The position numbers and the translations under genes were made by a program. From assembly GCA_016876035.1 (NCBI GenBank), contig VGOE01000011.1, positions 1-46,389 on the forward strand: a DNA stretch of 46,389 nt, given 5' to 3'. This document shows, one piece after another, positions 23,718 through 31,800 of this stretch; the first letter of the stretch is position 1, and each line of letters begins with the position of its first letter. A model generated the notes under the pieces. It ran no database searches and was not told the DNA's origin. It saw only the letters and a program-made list of their open reading frames with translations. Source of the DNA: Chloroflexota bacterium. GTDB lineage: Bacteria > Chloroflexota > Dehalococcoidia > UBA2247 > RBG-13-53-26.

Positions 23718-24393
23718 TGCCCTCTCCTGCATTGGCCGTTGCTTTGACCACTATCCTTTTTGGCCTGGGGATGGCCCGGAAGTTTCTCGGGGGATAATAG
23801 CGCCTCATTCTGTCCAGTTGCTGCAGCCGTTCGAGGCGCTTGTAGATGAGAACCCAGGCACAATCTGCCTCTTTGTTGGCTTCACATTTGTTGTCCTTCA
23901 CACCAGCGCAGGGACCGTTAAGTATCCCCTTGGTACACCTGGTGATAGGGCAGATGCCAGCAGTATCCTCTAACCTGCAATCTCCACAGGCAGCACACCG
24001 CTCATCCCACACACCCAACTCCTTGGCCATACCCATGAAAGAGGTATTAACGCCGGGCATGACAGGTATATCCGCAAAGCGTTCGGCTATTGCCTGAACC
24101 CCAATACCACAACCTAAGGACAGAATGGCATCTACTTCGCCCACTCTGTCAGCGAGTGGCTCCAAGAATTCAGGATCGCATTGCCTCTTCACGGTATATT
24201 CTGCAAAGGCGTGTGTCCCATCGCCAATCTTGACCTGGGCTAGCCGCAATGCGTTATGGAGGAATGAGACCTCGCGCTCGCCACCAGCATTGCAAACCGT
24301 CATGCAAGTGCCACAACCAACGATCAGCAGTCTTTCGTAAGGCCCGATCATCCGTCTGATTTCGTCCAAAGGCTTCTGCTCTGCGACTATCAC
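23710..24393 (-). CDS. metV: MetV-like methylene-THF reductase partner protein
   Basis: The 227-aa product is cysteine-rich: GCGTCMTVCN (Cys27, 30, 34), LGCGIG (Cys95), CAACGDC (133-139), CPITRC (148-153) and more after. The C-terminal part matches the domain usually annotated as the MTHFR C-terminal or MetV domain, which in acetogens binds FeS clusters and partners MetF. The gene overlaps metF by 8 nt and the flavoprotein gene by 4 nt, so all three are translationally coupled. It likely carries electrons from the 705-aa protein to MetF; this is inference. Confidence 0.85.
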   Translation of the reverse strand: MIVAEQKPLDEIRRMIGPYERLLIVGCGTCMTVCNAGGEREVSFLHNALRLAQVKIGDGTHAFAEYTVKRQCDPEFLEPLADRVGEVDAILSLGCGIGVQAIAERFADIPVMPGVNTSFMGMAKELGVWDERCAACGDCRLEDTAGICPITRCTKGILNGPCAGVKDNKCEANKEADCAWVLIYKRLERLQQLDRMRRYYPPRNFRAIPRPKRIVVKATANAGEGNG

Positions 24394-26507
24394 CTTGCCA
24401 CCTCCATCTTAATTGCCGTCGCTAAATGGAGCTGACCTATTTGCTCAGTGAACTTGTCCAACTCCGCGGCGGGATTCCCATTGGTGCTGTCTGGAAGAAA
24501 AGCCTGCAAGCGCTCCGGCTCAAGTCCGATCTGGGACAGTGTCTTTCTGACCTTTTCCATCCGTTGCTGTAGCCAGGTGGCTGTGTTTTCTCGAGCGCAT
24601 TGTTTTCCGCACCCAGCAATGAAAACTCCCTCAGCACCTATCTCAAAAGCGCGCAGCATGTGCTCGGCCTCCACCTTGGCAACACAGAGAACAGGCAAAA
24701 TCCAGATGCCGGCCCTGGCTCCCTTCCACAGGCTTGCCAAACTGCCAGTTCCGAAAAGGCCGTACTGGCAACAGAAGCCGATAATGAGGGGCTTGAGCTT
24801 CGCTTCGGTTCCAGACTTAATTACATGCTCTAGCTCTTCTGTTATCTGACGTCGGTCATAGGGCTTTCTCAAGATTATTGCCTTCGCTGGGCACTCTGCC
24901 ACACATATTCCACACGCCAGGCACTGGTCAGCCGGTATCTGAATGGTGCCGCTGGCATCCAGATAAGGCACGTGATAAGGACAGACCCTGAGACAGGTAA
25001 GACAAGTGGCACACTTGTCTTGGAACAGGATCTCAGCCCCCACTCCACACCGCAGACACCTTCTTGCTTCGTTCACCGCAGCTTCCCAGTCATAGACAAG
25101 CTCCACAGGCTCGAAGTCCTTCGCCCTCGTTTCAGGAGGCAGAATCGGCGGCTCAAGCCGGCTCATTTTCCTTATCATTTCTATTGTTTTGGGCAGCAGG
25201 TCAGTGGTCAGAGTTGGCCTACCTCCACTGGGTAAGGGGTATCTGTGCTGGAGATAGTCGTCAATACGTGAGGCCGCTAGCCTTCCCGCGGCCAATGCTT
25301 CGGTCACGGTTGCAGGCCCGGTGACGGCATCGCCTCCTGCGAAGACCCCAGCTCTGTTAGTGGTAAGGGTGATTGGGTCGACTTGAATGGTACTACCCCT
25401 ACCCATGCGCACACGGAAATCCGTTGGGGTTTGGGGTGCTTGTCCAATAGCCGTGATTAGCGTATCGAACCTTTCAATGAAGTCGCTGTCTTTGATTGGT
25501 ACAGGTTGACGACGGCCACGGGCATCTGGCTCACCAAGTTCCATCTTTATGCAAGTTACGACCAGCTTTCCATTTTCACGCTTTATCTTGGTCGGTGTTG
25601 CCAGGAACATTACTTCAATGCCTTCGCCAAGAGCGAGCTCTACCTCCCCGGCATTGGCTGGCATTTCCGCCTGACTGCGGCGGTAAATAATTTTCACTTT
25701 CTTGACTCCGAGCCGAGCTGCTGTGCGAGCAGCATCAATGGCCACATTGCCACCTCCCACCACAGCCACGGCTTTCCCTAAGGACGGCTTCAGACCAAGG
25801 TTCACTTCCCGGAGAAACGTCGCTCCGTCTATCACGCCTGGGCTCTCCTCACCCTCTATTCCCAATCTGAGGCCCTGATGGGCACCTATGGTGACGAAGA
25901 TAGCTTTGTAGCCTAGGTCAAATAGCAGATCCAAGGATACCACCCGTGTATTTGTCCTGATTTCCACCCCTATCCCGGTTAGCCTTTCAATCTCGGTGTC
26001 CAACACCTTACGGGGGAGACGATATTGAGGAATACCAGTTCGCAGCATGCCACCAAGCTCCGAATGAGCTTCGAAGATGGTTACCGGGTAACCCAGCTTC
26101 CTCAGATAGTACGCACAAGCCATTCCTGCCGGACCAGAGCCTACAATAGCGATCTTCTCTGGATGCGTTGTTTCGGCTTCAGCCCGCACCATCCGGTCAC
26201 CACCGAACTCCACTGCAAACCTTTTCAAGGCTCTAACAGCTATGGACTTATCTACCTGAGAACGGCGACAAGCATCCTCGCAAGGATGAGTGCAAACGTA
26301 GGCACAGATGGACGGGAAGGGATTGCCACTTCTTATGGTTTGTAGTGCCTCCATAATCTTGCCTTGGGCAACCAGGTCAATATACTCCCGGACATCCATA
26401 TGCAGGGGACAGGCAGACTGACAGGGAGACACCAGGCTGTGGTCAGGAGATTTGTGCGGTCGCTCGGCTTGATACTTTCTAGTATCGCCACTCACTACTG
26501 GAGACAT
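24390..26507 (-). CDS. Fused NfnB/GltD-like flavoprotein with ferredoxin and MvhD domains
   Basis: This 705-aa protein joins four parts. Residues 28-105 form a GltD/NfnB-type FeS domain (Cys29, 33, 68, 72, 76, 80). Residues 118-420 form an FAD/NAD(P) oxidoreductase (GSGPAG at 123-128, GGG at 251-253, YRRSQAEMPA, FAGGDAVTGP). Residues 480-545 carry two 4Fe4S motifs (Cys499-509 and Cys529-539). Residues 573-655 form an MvhD/FlpD-like domain (Cys579, Cys580, Cys608, Cys633, Cys637). First gene of the metVF operon; ATG 26507 follows AAGGGGGCG. It probably links NAD(P)H or ferredoxin to the MetV-MetF reductase. HdrA is an alternative label, but the flavin domain reads as GltD-like. Confidence 0.88.
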   Translation of the reverse strand: MSPVVSGDTRKYQAERPHKSPDHSLVSPCQSACPLHMDVREYIDLVAQGKIMEALQTIRSGNPFPSICAYVCTHPCEDACRRSQVDKSIAVRALKRFAVEFGGDRMVRAEAETTHPEKIAIVGSGPAGMACAYYLRKLGYPVTIFEAHSELGGMLRTGIPQYRLPRKVLDTEIERLTGIGVEIRTNTRVVSLDLLFDLGYKAIFVTIGAHQGLRLGIEGEESPGVIDGATFLREVNLGLKPSLGKAVAVVGGGNVAIDAARTAARLGVKKVKIIYRRSQAEMPANAGEVELALGEGIEVMFLATPTKIKRENGKLVVTCIKMELGEPDARGRRQPVPIKDSDFIERFDTLITAIGQAPQTPTDFRVRMGRGSTIQVDPITLTTNRAGVFAGGDAVTGPATVTEALAAGRLAASRIDDYLQHRYPLPSGGRPTLTTDLLPKTIEMIRKMSRLEPPILPPETRAKDFEPVELVYDWEAAVNEARRCLRCGVGAEILFQDKCATCLTCLRVCPYHVPYLDASGTIQIPADQCLACGICVAECPAKAIILRKPYDRRQITEELEHVIKSGTEAKLKPLIIGFCCQYGLFGTGSLASLWKGARAGIWILPVLCVAKVEAEHMLRAFEIGAEGVFIAGCGKQCARENTATWLQQRMEKVRKTLSQIGLEPERLQAFLPDSTNGNPAAELDKFTEQIGQLHLATAIKMEVAR

Positions 26508-26568: not shown

Positions 26569-26626
26569 GGGAAATTCCTGGTGATTAGTGGGGATTTCTG
26601 TAGGGATTTTCCCAAGGGAAATCCCC
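26569..26626. repeat. Cluster of GGGATTTTCC-like motifs
   Basis: Four near-palindromic units occur within 58 bp: GGGAAATTCC (26569-26578), GGGGATTTCT (26590-26599), GGGATTTTCCC (26603-26613) and GGGAAATCCCC (26616-26626). The last three are 13 bp apart. GGGGATTTC/GAAATCCCC (26590-26598 and 26618-26626) also form a perfect 9-bp inverted repeat. They lie directly upstream of the minus-strand -35 box, as an activator or repressor array might. Confidence 0.5.
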
Positions 26627-26735: not shown

Positions 26736-26764
26736 TTGCATTTTCCCCCTGGTTGTGGTATATT
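26736..26764 (+). promoter_or_regulatory. Probable promoter of the nusA operon
   Basis: TTGCAT (26736-26741) and TATATT (26759-26764) are spaced exactly 17 bp. The expected transcription start (about 26771) is 77 bp before the nusA ATG and just upstream of the hairpin at 26788-26808. Confidence 0.55.
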
Positions 26765-26787
26765 TCGGCTGTATCGGGATTGCTTAT

Positions 26788-26815
26788 GGAGTGGGTGCCC
26801 CCCACTTCTTTTGTT
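26788..26815 (+). terminator. Intrinsic-terminator-like hairpin in the nusA leader
   Basis: GGAGTGGG (26788-26795) pairs with CCCACTTC (26801-26808; one G-U) over a 5-nt loop, and the strand continues TTCTTTTGTT (26806-26815). This is the form of a Rho-independent terminator, placed between the promoter and the ATG at 26848. It would allow attenuation, perhaps by NusA itself, which promotes termination at such sites. Confidence 0.55.
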
Positions 26816-26847
26816 AAAGGAGAGTTTGAGCGGGAGTAAAGTAGCAG

Positions 26848-28437
26848 ATGAAGAGTGATTTCGTAGTTGCTCTTACTCAATTAGCTGCTGAGAGGAACCT
26901 ACCGAAGGAGGTTATCCTCAAGACTCTGGAGACGGCATTGGTCCCCGTCTTCAAGAAGAGCAGCTTTGCGCCCGAACAAGAGGTTTCTGTCAAGATTCTG
27001 CCTCAAACTGGCGAAGTCAAGGTTTATGCTCGAAAGTTGGTAGTAAAACGGAGTACCGACCCTAGGCAGCAGCTAACGCTGGCTCAAGCCCGAAAACTGA
27101 AAACGGACGCTCAACTGGGAGACGTTATTGAAGTAGAGGGCACTCCACCTGATGCCGGTCGCATTGCTGCTCAAACGGCGAAACAGGTGATCTTGCAGCG
27201 GCTCCGAGAGGCCGAACGTGATGCCATCTTTGGTGAATACGCTGATAAAGAGGGTGACATTGTCAGCGGCGTTGTCCATTTAGTAGAACCGAAGCAGATC
27301 ATTGTTGACCTGGGAAGAGCGGAGGCAATACTCCCTCTGGCTGAGCAGGTAAGCACGGAACATTACCGGGTAGGACAAAGGCTGAAGCTCTACCTTCTGA
27401 AAGTGTTGCGGGCTAGCAGGGGGACCCAGTTGATAGTCTCGCGGACACACCAGAATCTGCTACGCCGCCTTTTTGAACTGGAGATTCCAGAGATCTTTAA
27501 CGGCACAGTGGAAATCAAGGCTTTGGCGCGAGAACCGGGCTACCGGAGTAAGGTTGCTGTTTCCGCTCGCCAAGAAGGTGTTGATGCCGTCGGCTGTTGT
27601 CTTGGGCTGCGCAGCATCAGAATCCAGAATATTATCAAGGAACTGAATGGGGAGAAAATAGACGTTATTCAGTGGCACCCTGATCCAGTGGTCTTCATCG
27701 CTAGCGCGTTGAGTCCGGCGTCGGTAGTAAAAGTGGAGGCGAGTGAGGAGGAGAAGAGTGCTAACGTCGTTGTTCCTGATAGGCAACTTTCGTTGGCTAT
27801 TGGCAAAGGGGGACAGAATGCCAGGCTTGCTGCTAGGCTCACTGGCTGGCGGATAGATATCAAGAACGTCTCCATGGTTGAGGCGGGGAAAGCCGCCAAG
27901 CCGGTGGAAGTGGCTGCTGAAGTGCCTGCTGAGGAAGCCAAAGTAGTGGGGGAGCCGATACTCGATAAAATTGGTGGTGAAGAGCGCGCGGAGGGAGTAG
28001 GCGTTGCTGAGGTCGTGCCGGCAGTTGCCCCTGTAGCAGAGATTGCGGTGCAGCCGGTAGCTGCTGAGGCGGCCCCTGTTTTGGAGGAGGTGGTCCGGGT
28101 GGTGTCAGTCCCAGTAGAGACGCCACCGGAGATTGAAGCGCCGGTTGAAGCGGTGGAGACGGTCGAAGCTGAAGAGCCTAGCAAAACCTATTCGGTTGAA
28201 GAGATACTGTCTGAGATAGAGTTGGCTACCGAGAGGATTCAAAGCCGCTTCGGGGGAGCGGCTTCGGCACCCAGGCCGCAGCCTTGGGTTAAGAAGGGGA
28301 AAAAGGAGAGTGTTCCTGAGGACGAGGCGCCAGTGAAGACGAAGGCGAAAAAGGCTGCACGACGCCGGCGTATAGCGGACGAGGATTCGGATCTTGACGA
28401 AGGGCCTGAGTTGGAGATTGGTGGTGAAGAGGAATAG
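26848..28437 (+). CDS. nusA: Transcription termination/antitermination protein NusA
   Basis: NusA binds RNA polymerase and controls pausing, termination and antitermination. The 529-aa product has an N-terminal polymerase-binding domain (about 1-130), an S1 domain (about 135-200) and two KH domains (200-345) with [20 protein letters not shown] and [20 protein letters not shown]. Residues 345-529 are an unusual low-complexity tail rich in A, V, E and P, ending in basic then acidic runs ([19 protein letters not shown]). It heads the operon; the usual upstream rimP is absent. Confidence 0.95.
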
Positions 28438-28726
28438 GGCGAGTCAAGCTCAACCTGTGAGACATATCCCTAATCGTACCTGCATTGCTTGCCGTGAGGT
28501 TAGGCCAAAGCGAGAGCTAATCCGCTTGGTTTATACGACGGATGGCACAGCAGAGGTGGATCCTTCAGGGAAGAAAGCGGGACGGGGTGTCTATCTTTGC
28601 CCATCGGTAGATTGCTGGCAGAAGGGATTAGCAAAAGACAAACTGGAGCGTGCATTGCGGGGGAAAATTAGTACCGAGAGTCGTCAGAATTTGCTGGCGT
28701 TTGGGAAAACGCTCAACTCCACATGA
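28424..28726 (+). CDS. ylxR: YlxR-family RNA-binding protein
   Basis: A 100-aa member of the YlxR family, small basic proteins encoded between nusA and infB in many bacteria; in Bacillus-type studies they have been linked to nucleoid or RNase P functions. The core is IPNRTCIACREVRPKRELIR followed by GKKAGRGVYLCPSVDCWQKG. I chose GTG 28424, 7 nt after GGAG; it overlaps the nusA end. The frame is open further upstream. Confidence 0.9.
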   Translation: MKRNRASQAQPVRHIPNRTCIACREVRPKRELIRLVYTTDGTAEVDPSGKKAGRGVYLCPSVDCWQKGLAKDKLERALRGKISTESRQNLLAFGKTLNST

Positions 28727-28759: not shown

Positions 28760-30547
28760 ATGCCCAGGAAAGTCACGAAAGAGAAGACTCCTACCAAGGC
28801 TGAGAATCAGATTGAGCTTCCACCGTCAATGACGGTTCAACAACTAGCTGATCTGCTTGGGATCAGTGGAGTGGAAGTGATCAAGCAGTTGATGCAGAGC
28901 GGCGTCATGGCGAATCTCAACCAGATCATCGATTATGAAACAGCGGCCATAGTTGCCTCAGATCTTGATTACGAAACAATAGAAATAGCGGCGCCTGCGC
29001 CTGCTGTCAGTGCAGCGTTGCCAGGGCAACAGCTTCAACCCCGTCCTCCTGTGGTCACGGTTATGGGCCATATCGACCATGGCAAGACCAGACTTTTGGA
29101 TGCCATCCGACAAACAAATGTGATGGCTACTGAAGCAGGGGGTATCACCCAACGGATTGGTGCCTATCAGGCAGAAGTGGATGATAGGAAGATAACGTTT
29201 GTCGATACTCCCGGTCATGAGGCTTTCACGGCTATGCGAGCAAGAGGGGCAAAGGCAACAGACATTGCTGTTCTTGTAGTAGCTGCCGATGATGGGGTAA
29301 TGCCCCAAACTCGAGAAGCCATAGCTCATGCTCGGGCGGCTGGGGTACCGATTGTGGTGGCCCTGAATAAGATTGATAAGCCTGGCATTAACTTGGAGAG
29401 GGTGAAGCAACAGCTTAATGAAGAGGGTTTGGTTATTGAGGAGTGGGGTGGGGACGTTATCTGTGTGCCGGTTTCCGCCAAGATGAAACAAGGTGTTTCT
29501 GAGCTTCTGGAGAACATCCTTATTGTTGCGGAGATGTTGGACCTGAAGGCGAATGTTGATTGCCCAGCCACCGGGGTGGTCATCGAAGCCGAACTAGACA
29601 AGACAAGAGGCCCGCTGGCTACTGTATTGGTTCAGAACGGCGTTCTTAAGGTGGGGGACTCCGTGGTCGTCGGCGACAACTGGGGTAAGGTGAAGGCCAT
29701 GTTCAGTGACGCTGGCAAGCGGGTGAAGCGTGCAGAACCAGCGACCCCAGTTAAGGTATTAGGTTTAAGTGGTGTGCCCCAAGCGGGTGATACCTGCACA
29801 GTGGTGGGCAGTGAGCGTGAGGCGAGGAGTTTAGGCCAGCAACGTCAGGCGGAAAAACAACTCAGATTGCAGAGGCCAACTAGAGTCCTCAGTTTAGATA
29901 GTCTGTTTGCTGAGGTTAAGGAGGGGCAAGCAAGAGAGCTTAACCTTGTTCTCAAGACCGGTGTCCAGGGGAGCATTGAACCGATAAAGAAGTCATTGGA
30001 GCAGTTGGAGACAGAAGAGACAAAAGTGAAAATCATTCACTCTGGCAGCGGTAGTGTCACTGAGGGTGATGTTCTCTTGGCGTTGGCCTCCAAGGCGATT
30101 GTCATTGGCTTTGACGCTGCACCAACCTTGGGTGCGCGGCGGATGGCGGAACAGGAAGGTGTTGACATCCGGCGCTACAGCATAATCTACGACCTAATAG
30201 ACGATGTCCAACGAGCCATCAAGGGTATGAAGGAGCCGTCATACGCCGAGACCATCCAGGGACACGCAGAGGTGAGGGCCGTATTCTCGGCCAGCAAGAT
30301 TGGAAAGGCAGCCGGGGTCTATGTTACGGACGGCAGGCTACAGCGAGACGATTCGGTTAGAGTCCTACGCCAGGGGGAAGTAATTTACGAAGGCACCATC
30401 AGCAGCCTGAGACGTGTCAAGGAGGATATGAAAGAAGTGCTGGCTGGGTTTGAGGCTGGTGTAGGAATAGGGGGGTTCAAGCAGTTTCAGGAAGGTGACA
30501 TAATCGAAGCTTATCGGATGGAGAAAGTTGATGAGTCGGCGCATTGA
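28760..30547 (+). CDS. infB: Translation initiation factor IF-2
   Basis: IF-2 is the GTPase that brings initiator tRNA to the 30S and joins the subunits. The 595-aa product is short for the family because the N-terminal region is reduced to one IF2_N-like domain ([20 protein letters not shown]). The G domain has [16 protein letters not shown] and NKID. Domains II-IV follow to the end (TDVQGS-like [32 protein letters not shown]). The compact form resembles Dehalococcoides IF-2 as I recall it. Confidence 0.96.
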
Positions 30548-30905
30548 GAGGGTGAATAGCCTTATCCGTCAAGAGATGAGCCAATTGTTGCAACGCGAAG
30601 TGAAGGACCCAAGGCTAGCTCGTTTTGTAACTGTGACACAGGTTTCTACCTCTCTTGACCTGCGTCATGCCAAGGTACTAATCAGCACCATGGGCAGCGA
30701 TGAGGAAAAAAAGGAAGTGCTTGAGGCTTTGACCGCTGCCTCTGGTTTCCTGCGCAGGGAGATAAGCCATCGTCTCAGGCTACGGTACACCCCACAGTTG
30801 ACCTTCTGCAACGATAATTCCATCGACCAAGCATCCAAGGTTCTCCAGCTAATCCGCCAGGCGGGCACTGCTGAAGCTGGAGAAGATGAACAAGGTGAGT
30901 GTTGA
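30531..30905 (+). CDS. rbfA: Ribosome-binding factor A
   Basis: RbfA binds the 30S during late maturation. The 124-aa product starts [20 protein letters not shown] and has VKDPRLARFVTVTQVSTSLD and VLEALTAASGFLRREISHRL, the KH-like family pattern. ATG 30531 is inside the end of infB (17-nt overlap); a TTG one codon before is also open. It overlaps truB by 20 nt. Confidence 0.95.
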   Translation: MSRRIERVNSLIRQEMSQLLQREVKDPRLARFVTVTQVSTSLDLRHAKVLISTMGSDEEKKEVLEALTAASGFLRREISHRLRLRYTPQLTFCNDNSIDQASKVLQLIRQAGTAEAGEDEQGEC

Positions 30906-31800
30906 TGGTATCCTGAATATCTTCAAGCCCTCAGGCAGGACCTCCTTCTCGGTGGTCTCACTTCTGCGTCGCCTGAGTGGCGAGCGCCGGGTAGGGCATA
31001 CTGGCACACTTGATCCTGAAGCCACTGGTGTGCTGGTCGTTTGCTTTGGACAAGCAACCAAGGTTATTCGTTTCTTAGCAAGAGCTAAGAAAACCTATCA
31101 AGCTGAGATTGAGTTGGGATTGGCCACTGACAGCTACGATGCTACTGGGAGGGTAGTGAAGAGGGGGGATCCATCCTCTGTCAACAGGGATCAGGTGGAG
31201 CAGGTGCTGAATTGTTTTCGTGGGCCTATCGAGCAGGTGCCGCCGATGTATAGTGCGGTGAAGCGTGAAGGTAAGCGTCTGTACCGTCTTGCCTGGGAAG
31301 GCATTGAGGTACCAAGAAAACCCAGGACGGTGCAAATTTTCCGCCTGGAGCTTATGGAGTGGCAATCTCCCATTGCCAGCATTGAGGTGGAGTGCAGTGC
31401 TGGGACATATATTCGCTCCTTGGCTCAGGATATAGGCGTAGCCCTAGGTTGTGGTGCCCATCTCAAGAAACTGGTTCGTCTCAAGAACGAGCCCTTCCAC
31501 ATTTCTGAGGCCGTGTCTCTTCCTCTGATTGAAGAAGCCTTTCATCATGGCTACTGGGACCGTTTTCTGTATCCTATTGACGAGGTGCTTCTTGGGTGGG
31601 AGGCTACTATCCTCAGCAAGGAGAACGAAATGCTGGTCGATAAAGGTAGGACGGTATGTCTACAGGGTGAACGTCTATTGGCTCACCCGGTTAACCGGTG
31701 CCGTGCCTACTCTGCAGATGGCCGTTTTCTGGCCGTATTACGGCAAGAGACCATAGGTCTGTGGCATCCTGAGAAAGTGTTCCATTCTATTCACCTTTGA
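30886..31800 (+). CDS. truB: tRNA pseudouridine(55) synthase TruB
   Basis: TruB makes pseudouridine 55 in the tRNA T-arm. The 304-aa product has DGILNIFKPSGRTSFSVV, the catalytic Asp in GHTGTLDPEATGVLVV, and YDATGRV, and the C-terminal half carries CSAGTYIRSLAQDIG. It overlaps the end of rbfA, completing the common nusA-ylxR-infB-rbfA-truB set. A C-terminal PUA-like region is likely from length. Confidence 0.95.
   Translation: MNKVSVDGILNIFKPSGRTSFSVVSLLRRLSGERRVGHTGTLDPEATGVLVVCFGQATKVIRFLARAKKTYQAEIELGLATDSYDATGRVVKRGDPSSVNRDQVEQVLNCFRGPIEQVPPMYSAVKREGKRLYRLAWEGIEVPRKPRTVQIFRLELMEWQSPIASIEVECSAGTYIRSLAQDIGVALGCGAHLKKLVRLKNEPFHISEAVSLPLIEEAFHHGYWDRFLYPIDEVLLGWEATILSKENEMLVDKGRTVCLQGERLLAHPVNRCRAYSADGRFLAVLRQETIGLWHPEKVFHSIHL

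Follow-up and report, generated by a model that had tools for sequence, protein, structure and literature searches.

We conclude that the leader hairpin of the nusA-ylxR-infB-rbfA-truB operon in this member of the Dehalococcoidia (Chloroflexota) is probably a promoter-proximal intrinsic terminator that acts as a NusA-sensing attenuator (probability about 0.75). The hairpin lies in a stretch of 46,389 nucleotides, called the window hereafter. By sequence, the order promoter, terminator and nusA is present, with a predicted transcription start. The features are as follows.

26736-26741, plus strand: -35-like box TTGCAT, read from the sequence
26756-26764, plus strand: extended -10 element TGGTATATT, with TG at 26756-26757 and TATATT at 26759-26764
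26788-26808, plus strand: terminator hairpin GGAGUGGG-UGCCC-CCCACUUC, from sequence, conservation and the best genome match of covariance model R1
26788-26795, 26796-26800 and 26801-26808, plus strand: the hairpin parts read from the sequence, namely stem GGAGTGGG, loop TGCCC and stem CCCACTTC
26809-26815, plus strand: U-rich tract UUUUGUU (TTTTGTT), read from the sequence; the T-rich tail is conserved in the class
26848-28437, plus strand: nusA (Pfam NusA_N, S1, KH_5), ATG at 26848
28394-28726, plus strand: ylxR, the next gene of the operon (Pfam YlxR)
28760-30547, plus strand: infB, encoding IF-2 (Pfam IF-2, IF2_N)
30528-30905, plus strand: rbfA (Pfam RBFA)
30886-31800, plus strand: truB (Pfam TruB_N)

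The spacer between TTGCAT and TATATT is 17 nt, and a TTGC-type -35 box with a spacer of 16-18 nt is the commonest form in 90 leaders of the class. Transcription is expected to start near 26771, as predicted from the extended -10 promoter. The stem begins 17 nt past this position and ends 39 nt before the nusA ATG. A first-pass annotation made from the letters alone had described a promoter-like pair, a hairpin, a U-rich tract, the 17-nt distance and nusA downstream, and all of these were found in the sequence. Its "8-bp GC hairpin" was correct in length and slightly generous in composition, as the stem has five G-C, two A-U and one G-U pair. The stability of the bare hairpin is moderate (-11.1 kcal/mol; the class median, calculated with flanks, is -12.4). 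Counted from CCCAC, the U-tract of the window is broken by a C. The tract that follows CCCAC reads TTCTTTTGTT in the window and in genome G004, TCTTTTTGGTT in most of the window's family (L001-L010) and TTTTTTGTT in most of the class. An in-frame stop codon (TAG, 26842-26844) precedes the nusA ATG; therefore, nusA has no upstream extension and the hairpin is non-coding in the nusA frame.

Taken alone, the window sequence is unremarkable. Folding of the 77-nt leader (26771-26847), which the first-pass annotation had proposed as a check, gave no support, since the native sequence folded no better than its shuffles (z +0.87; 161 of 200 shuffles at least as good). The count of terminator-like sites over 7 kb was six, at chance level (6.3 expected), and the window promoter scored under the threshold of a simple promoter scan. 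The single-sequence statistics (folding z and terminator count) were not counted as evidence. The hairpin and the promoter are credible because they are conserved in relatives.

NusA was detected in 97 of 100 relatives. These provided 97 nusA genes with upstream sequence, as one genome has two and one gene cut by a contig end was uncounted (G067 lies at a contig end, with no usable upstream sequence). A strict hairpin pattern matched 73 of the 97 leaders. By a relaxed motif-anchored search, which accepted changes at the five core pairs as long as they stayed paired and demanded at least 5 T in the next 10 bases, the hairpin core GUGGG...CCCAC with its U-tract was found in 90 of 97. The seven misses differ in kind: G018 has only 169 nt of upstream sequence, G028 shows a recognizable variant that contains a G-U pair and a long T-tract, G029 is degenerate, and G033, G066, G084 and G098, all of one genus, have lost the U-tract terminator. 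In place of the terminator, these four leaders (L092, L093, L090 and L095, respectively) share another element around GGTCGGGC...TCTGATCCTGCG.

In the rest of the phylum, 38 of 44 nusA leaders matched. All 24 first loci did (a 25th belongs to the window's class and is outside this set), as did 14 of 20 further loci, one of these 14 being 488 nt ahead of the matched start. Among the six non-matches, the stem of G127, G154, G108 and G146 is changed yet still paired, as judged by eye; in G115, rimP immediately precedes nusA and is itself preceded by a GGGGCCGTCGGCCC-T5 hairpin; and G120 has no terminator. The absence of the terminator from the four genomes of one genus and from G120 indicates that it is not indispensable. 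The motif-anchored search replaced an automatic terminator finder, which placed the best stem of the window at 26603-26625 and missed some relatives through its scoring. BLAST of the leader DNA against the window's own genome and 20 others (21 in all) returned the window itself only; such a short and divergent leader is beyond the reach of BLAST, so the hairpins were compared by position and by covariance model.

The promoter is conserved together with the hairpin. Of the 90 class leaders, 82 carry the motif TGnTAnnnT in the 110 nt that precede the hairpin. The best promoter-like pair in the 110 nt upstream of the 90 hairpins scored a mean of 10.3 out of 14, compared with 7.7 in shuffled sequences, and a score of 11 was reached by 36 of 90 leaders vs. 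1.2% of the shuffles. In 78 of the 90 leaders, 21-41 nt separate the -10 element from the stem. A conserved promoter at a near-constant distance indicates that promoter and hairpin form one conserved module. From CCCAC to nusA, the median distance in the class is 49 nt.

Covariation was assessed in an alignment (A1) of 76 hairpins. Fourteen of the 90 were left out: 11 of the window's family, two near-duplicates and one with an 11-nt loop; two rows that were kept (L030 and L033) are one column out of register. Five of the eight pairs change on both sides (38 cells), a value reached by none of 500 shuffles. Relatedness alone can beat shuffles, and sliding the pairing partner guards against this: 94.2% of the cells in A1 are paired, and only 34.5-63.0% were when the partner was slid by 1-3 columns. 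Within GGG/CCC, the three G-C pairs are almost invariant. Comparison of the leaders of relatives, also proposed by the first-pass annotation, thus yielded both conservation and covariation.

The covariance model R1 was built from A1, with the window's family excluded. Its best match in the window is 26786-26816 (28.9 bits, E 1.5e-4), and this site also ranks first in the entire genome of 2.53 Mb (E 0.008; the next best reaches 19.0 bits). In each of the 10 family genomes, R1 scores highest at the site before nusA. R1 matched at E 0.01 or better in 79 of 100 class genomes, a count that shows specificity rather than discovery because most of those leaders trained the model. Among the 88 matches listed, 74 lie before a mapped nusA, 9 lie elsewhere (genomes G027, G062, G081 and G143) and 5 are in genomes without a mapped nusA.

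We propose the following mechanism. RNA polymerase would start near 26771 and transcribe about 17 nt before the hairpin. The GUGGG/CCCAC hairpin and its U-tract, seen as sequence and as a conserved structure, would then be made, and either an RNA of roughly 45 nt would be released or transcription would read through into nusA. Judging from B. subtilis, E. coli and S. agalactiae, polymerase-bound NusA would favour the hairpin, so that with abundant NusA more RNA would be released and less nusA mRNA made, and when NusA is scarce readthrough would rise. Such a loop would work without a separate ligand, a leader peptide or a conserved antiterminator. An antiterminator was considered and rejected: the segment between start and stem pairs weakly with the stem (-8.5 vs. 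-11.1 kcal/mol for the hairpin), and no conserved sequence was seen between promoter and stem.

The same observations would suit a terminator that cuts operon expression by a constant fraction with no response to NusA, as a leader of this length has no room for a visible sensor, nothing is conserved from promoter to stem and the alternative pairing is the weaker one. A weaker promoter would suffice for that purpose, yet a near-invariant GUGGG/CCCAC has been kept across phyla at nusA, and the B. subtilis counterpart is reported to respond to NusA (PMC12288461). We therefore regard a fixed attenuator as unlikely.

The NusA-sensing attenuator proposed here has a known counterpart. The rimP-leader has been described as the most ubiquitous attenuator, with a conserved GGGc/gCCC stem (Naville & Gautheret 2010, PMC2965389). 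As described there, it is a short terminator with a G-rich 5' arm, a C-rich 3' arm, a T-stretch and no larger sensor domain, and it precedes the first gene of the rimP-nusA-infB operon by 4-130 nt. The element at 26788-26815 likewise has a GGG 5' arm, a CCC 3' arm and a T-stretch, 39 nt before nusA. It differs in two respects from that description. First, rimP is undetected in the window's class and the leader sits directly on nusA. Second, the window has GGGU/CCCC, with U/C replacing the c/g pair inside GGG/CCC; at this position, 46 of the 76 A1 rows of the class set have a standard pair. The position of rimP at the head of the operon is a contextual trait of the name and not of the RNA element. 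The nusA-leader element is the rimP-leader attenuator, a known kind of switch that is largely understood. In Rfam, the window leader had no match at the gathering threshold, and none was found for 8 related loci. The only permissive match, STnc290 (22.9 bits, gathering threshold 60, E 0.069), described as an IS200-linked Salmonella RNA (PMC2515195), was rejected as chance.

The idea of NusA feedback itself has already been published for the same element elsewhere. In B. subtilis, a 2025 review reports autoregulation of NusA by attenuation, including the response to NusA (PMC12288461). As here, an intrinsic terminator lies in the leader of an operon that encodes NusA; unlike here, that operon starts with rimP (ylxS), and the NusA effect is reported there, whereas it is inferred for the window. 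In S. agalactiae, RNA-seq placed a termination site 31 nt downstream of the start of the rimP-nusA operon, and NusA feedback was proposed (PMC4448216). That leader is also very short; it belongs to another phylum, has rimP first and is described from RNA-seq, compared with sequence in our case. In E. coli, NusA is reported to lower the expression of its own metY-rimP-nusA-infB operon, terminators lie upstream of rimP, and stimulation of termination by NusA has been proposed there as well (cited in PMC2965389 and PMC4448216); the E. coli leader differs in being longer and in containing two terminators, RNase III sites and a tRNA gene. The first-pass annotation, which had suggested that high NusA could reduce its own transcription, was right on the structure and very probably right on the role, given the conservation, the covariation, the near-constant promoter distance and this published precedent.

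The motif was also sought in public genomes with the pattern AAGTGGGN{3,9}CCCACTTTTTTRTTR, using no gene information, and at least 120 loci were returned. NusA lies downstream in 103 of 120 of the matches listed, at 18-132 nt in 52 and at 461-691 nt in 51. Eight of the 51 loci with the longer gap were checked, and RimP was in the gap in all eight. Hence, nusA is the immediate downstream gene without rimP and the next gene with rimP. Nine of the 17 matches listed without NusA have less than 900 nt of downstream sequence, and one of these (L216) shows RimP. Several of the remaining non-NusA matches listed resemble terminators at the ends of other genes; these few perfect copies suggest that the sequence also acts as an ordinary terminator. 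The titles of the 80 loci listed by name include Acidobacteria, Calditrichota, KSB1, Deltaproteobacteria, Actinomycetota, WWE3 and Chloroflexi. At L190, L199 and L200 (records titled WWE3, Phycisphaerae and Actinomycetes), only 30-93 nt separate the motif from nusA, too little to hold rimP.

NusA was named the best candidate regulator of the rimP-leader, with RimP as the named alternative (PMC2965389). The RimP_N domain was found in none of 60 class relatives, including the window's genome (32 of high quality), compared with 10 of 14 controls, and the RimP C-terminal domain in none of 41 class relatives (10 of 14 controls). The class thus appears, from these domain searches, to be without RimP, and RimP was rejected as the regulator for this class: it is undetected and the leader is still on nusA, so it is unlikely to be the sensor. 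Across the phylum, RimP_N was detected in 6 of 61 genomes. In 6 of 61 Chloroflexota genomes (L254-L259), rimP lies beside nusA, and a rimP-leader-like hairpin was seen before rimP in L256 and, by pattern, in none of the other five. In G103, G124, G132, G140 and G149, where rimP adjoins nusA, the pattern found no motif before rimP.

These data also bear on whether NusA could be a mere bystander and the terminator be read by another factor, such as NusG, a growth signal or an operon product (IF-2, YlxR or RbfA). A conserved sequence does suggest a specific reader, and ylxR, infB, rbfA and truB are also in the operon. The constant partner is nusA, however, directly downstream without rimP and the next gene with it, and RimP, the alternative named in 2010 (PMC2965389), is undetected in the class. 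Such a reader is, in our judgment, quite improbable. Lastly, an ordinary terminator of upstream transcription, a stabilizer of the mRNA 5' end or a source of small RNA would agree with the chance frequency of terminator-like sites and the few motif copies at gene ends elsewhere, but we give these very little credence because the gene on the other side of the leader (24390-26507) is divergent from nusA and leaves no upstream operon for the hairpin site to terminate, in most relatives the hairpin is preceded by a promoter at a near-constant distance, and the conserved T-rich tail argues for termination rather than stabilization.

Two further observations concern the surroundings of the leader. 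An inverted repeat, GGGATTTTCCCAAGGGAAATCCC, lies between the divergent genes at 26603-26625 in a single copy in the genome; it might be an operator of the divergent gene, which encodes an FAD/FlpD oxidoreductase. In addition, positions 272-21674 of the window hold a long run of mostly short same-strand ORFs, which could be a prophage.

The proposed NusA-sensing attenuator at the head of this operon would extend a general autoregulation device to a new phylum, as no report of this nusA leader in this class or in the phylum was found in the open-access literature. With RimP undetected and the leader persisting on nusA, the class offers a natural experiment on the identity of the regulator, RimP or NusA, which was left undecided in 2010 for the most widespread predicted attenuator (PMC2965389). 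This apparently RimP-free setting is the added value of our analysis, and it favours NusA as the sensor. More tentatively, and with rather less than even confidence, we suggest that GUGGG...CCCAC with its U-tract is an ancient, phylum-spanning cis-signal of nusA, whose exact sequence, and not just its stability, may be tuned for unusual NusA sensitivity, and which may remain at nusA where rimP has been lost or never existed, as in the Dehalococcoidia and most of the Chloroflexota sampled. The near-invariant stem across phyla also provides a testable hypothesis on what makes a terminator sensitive to NusA.
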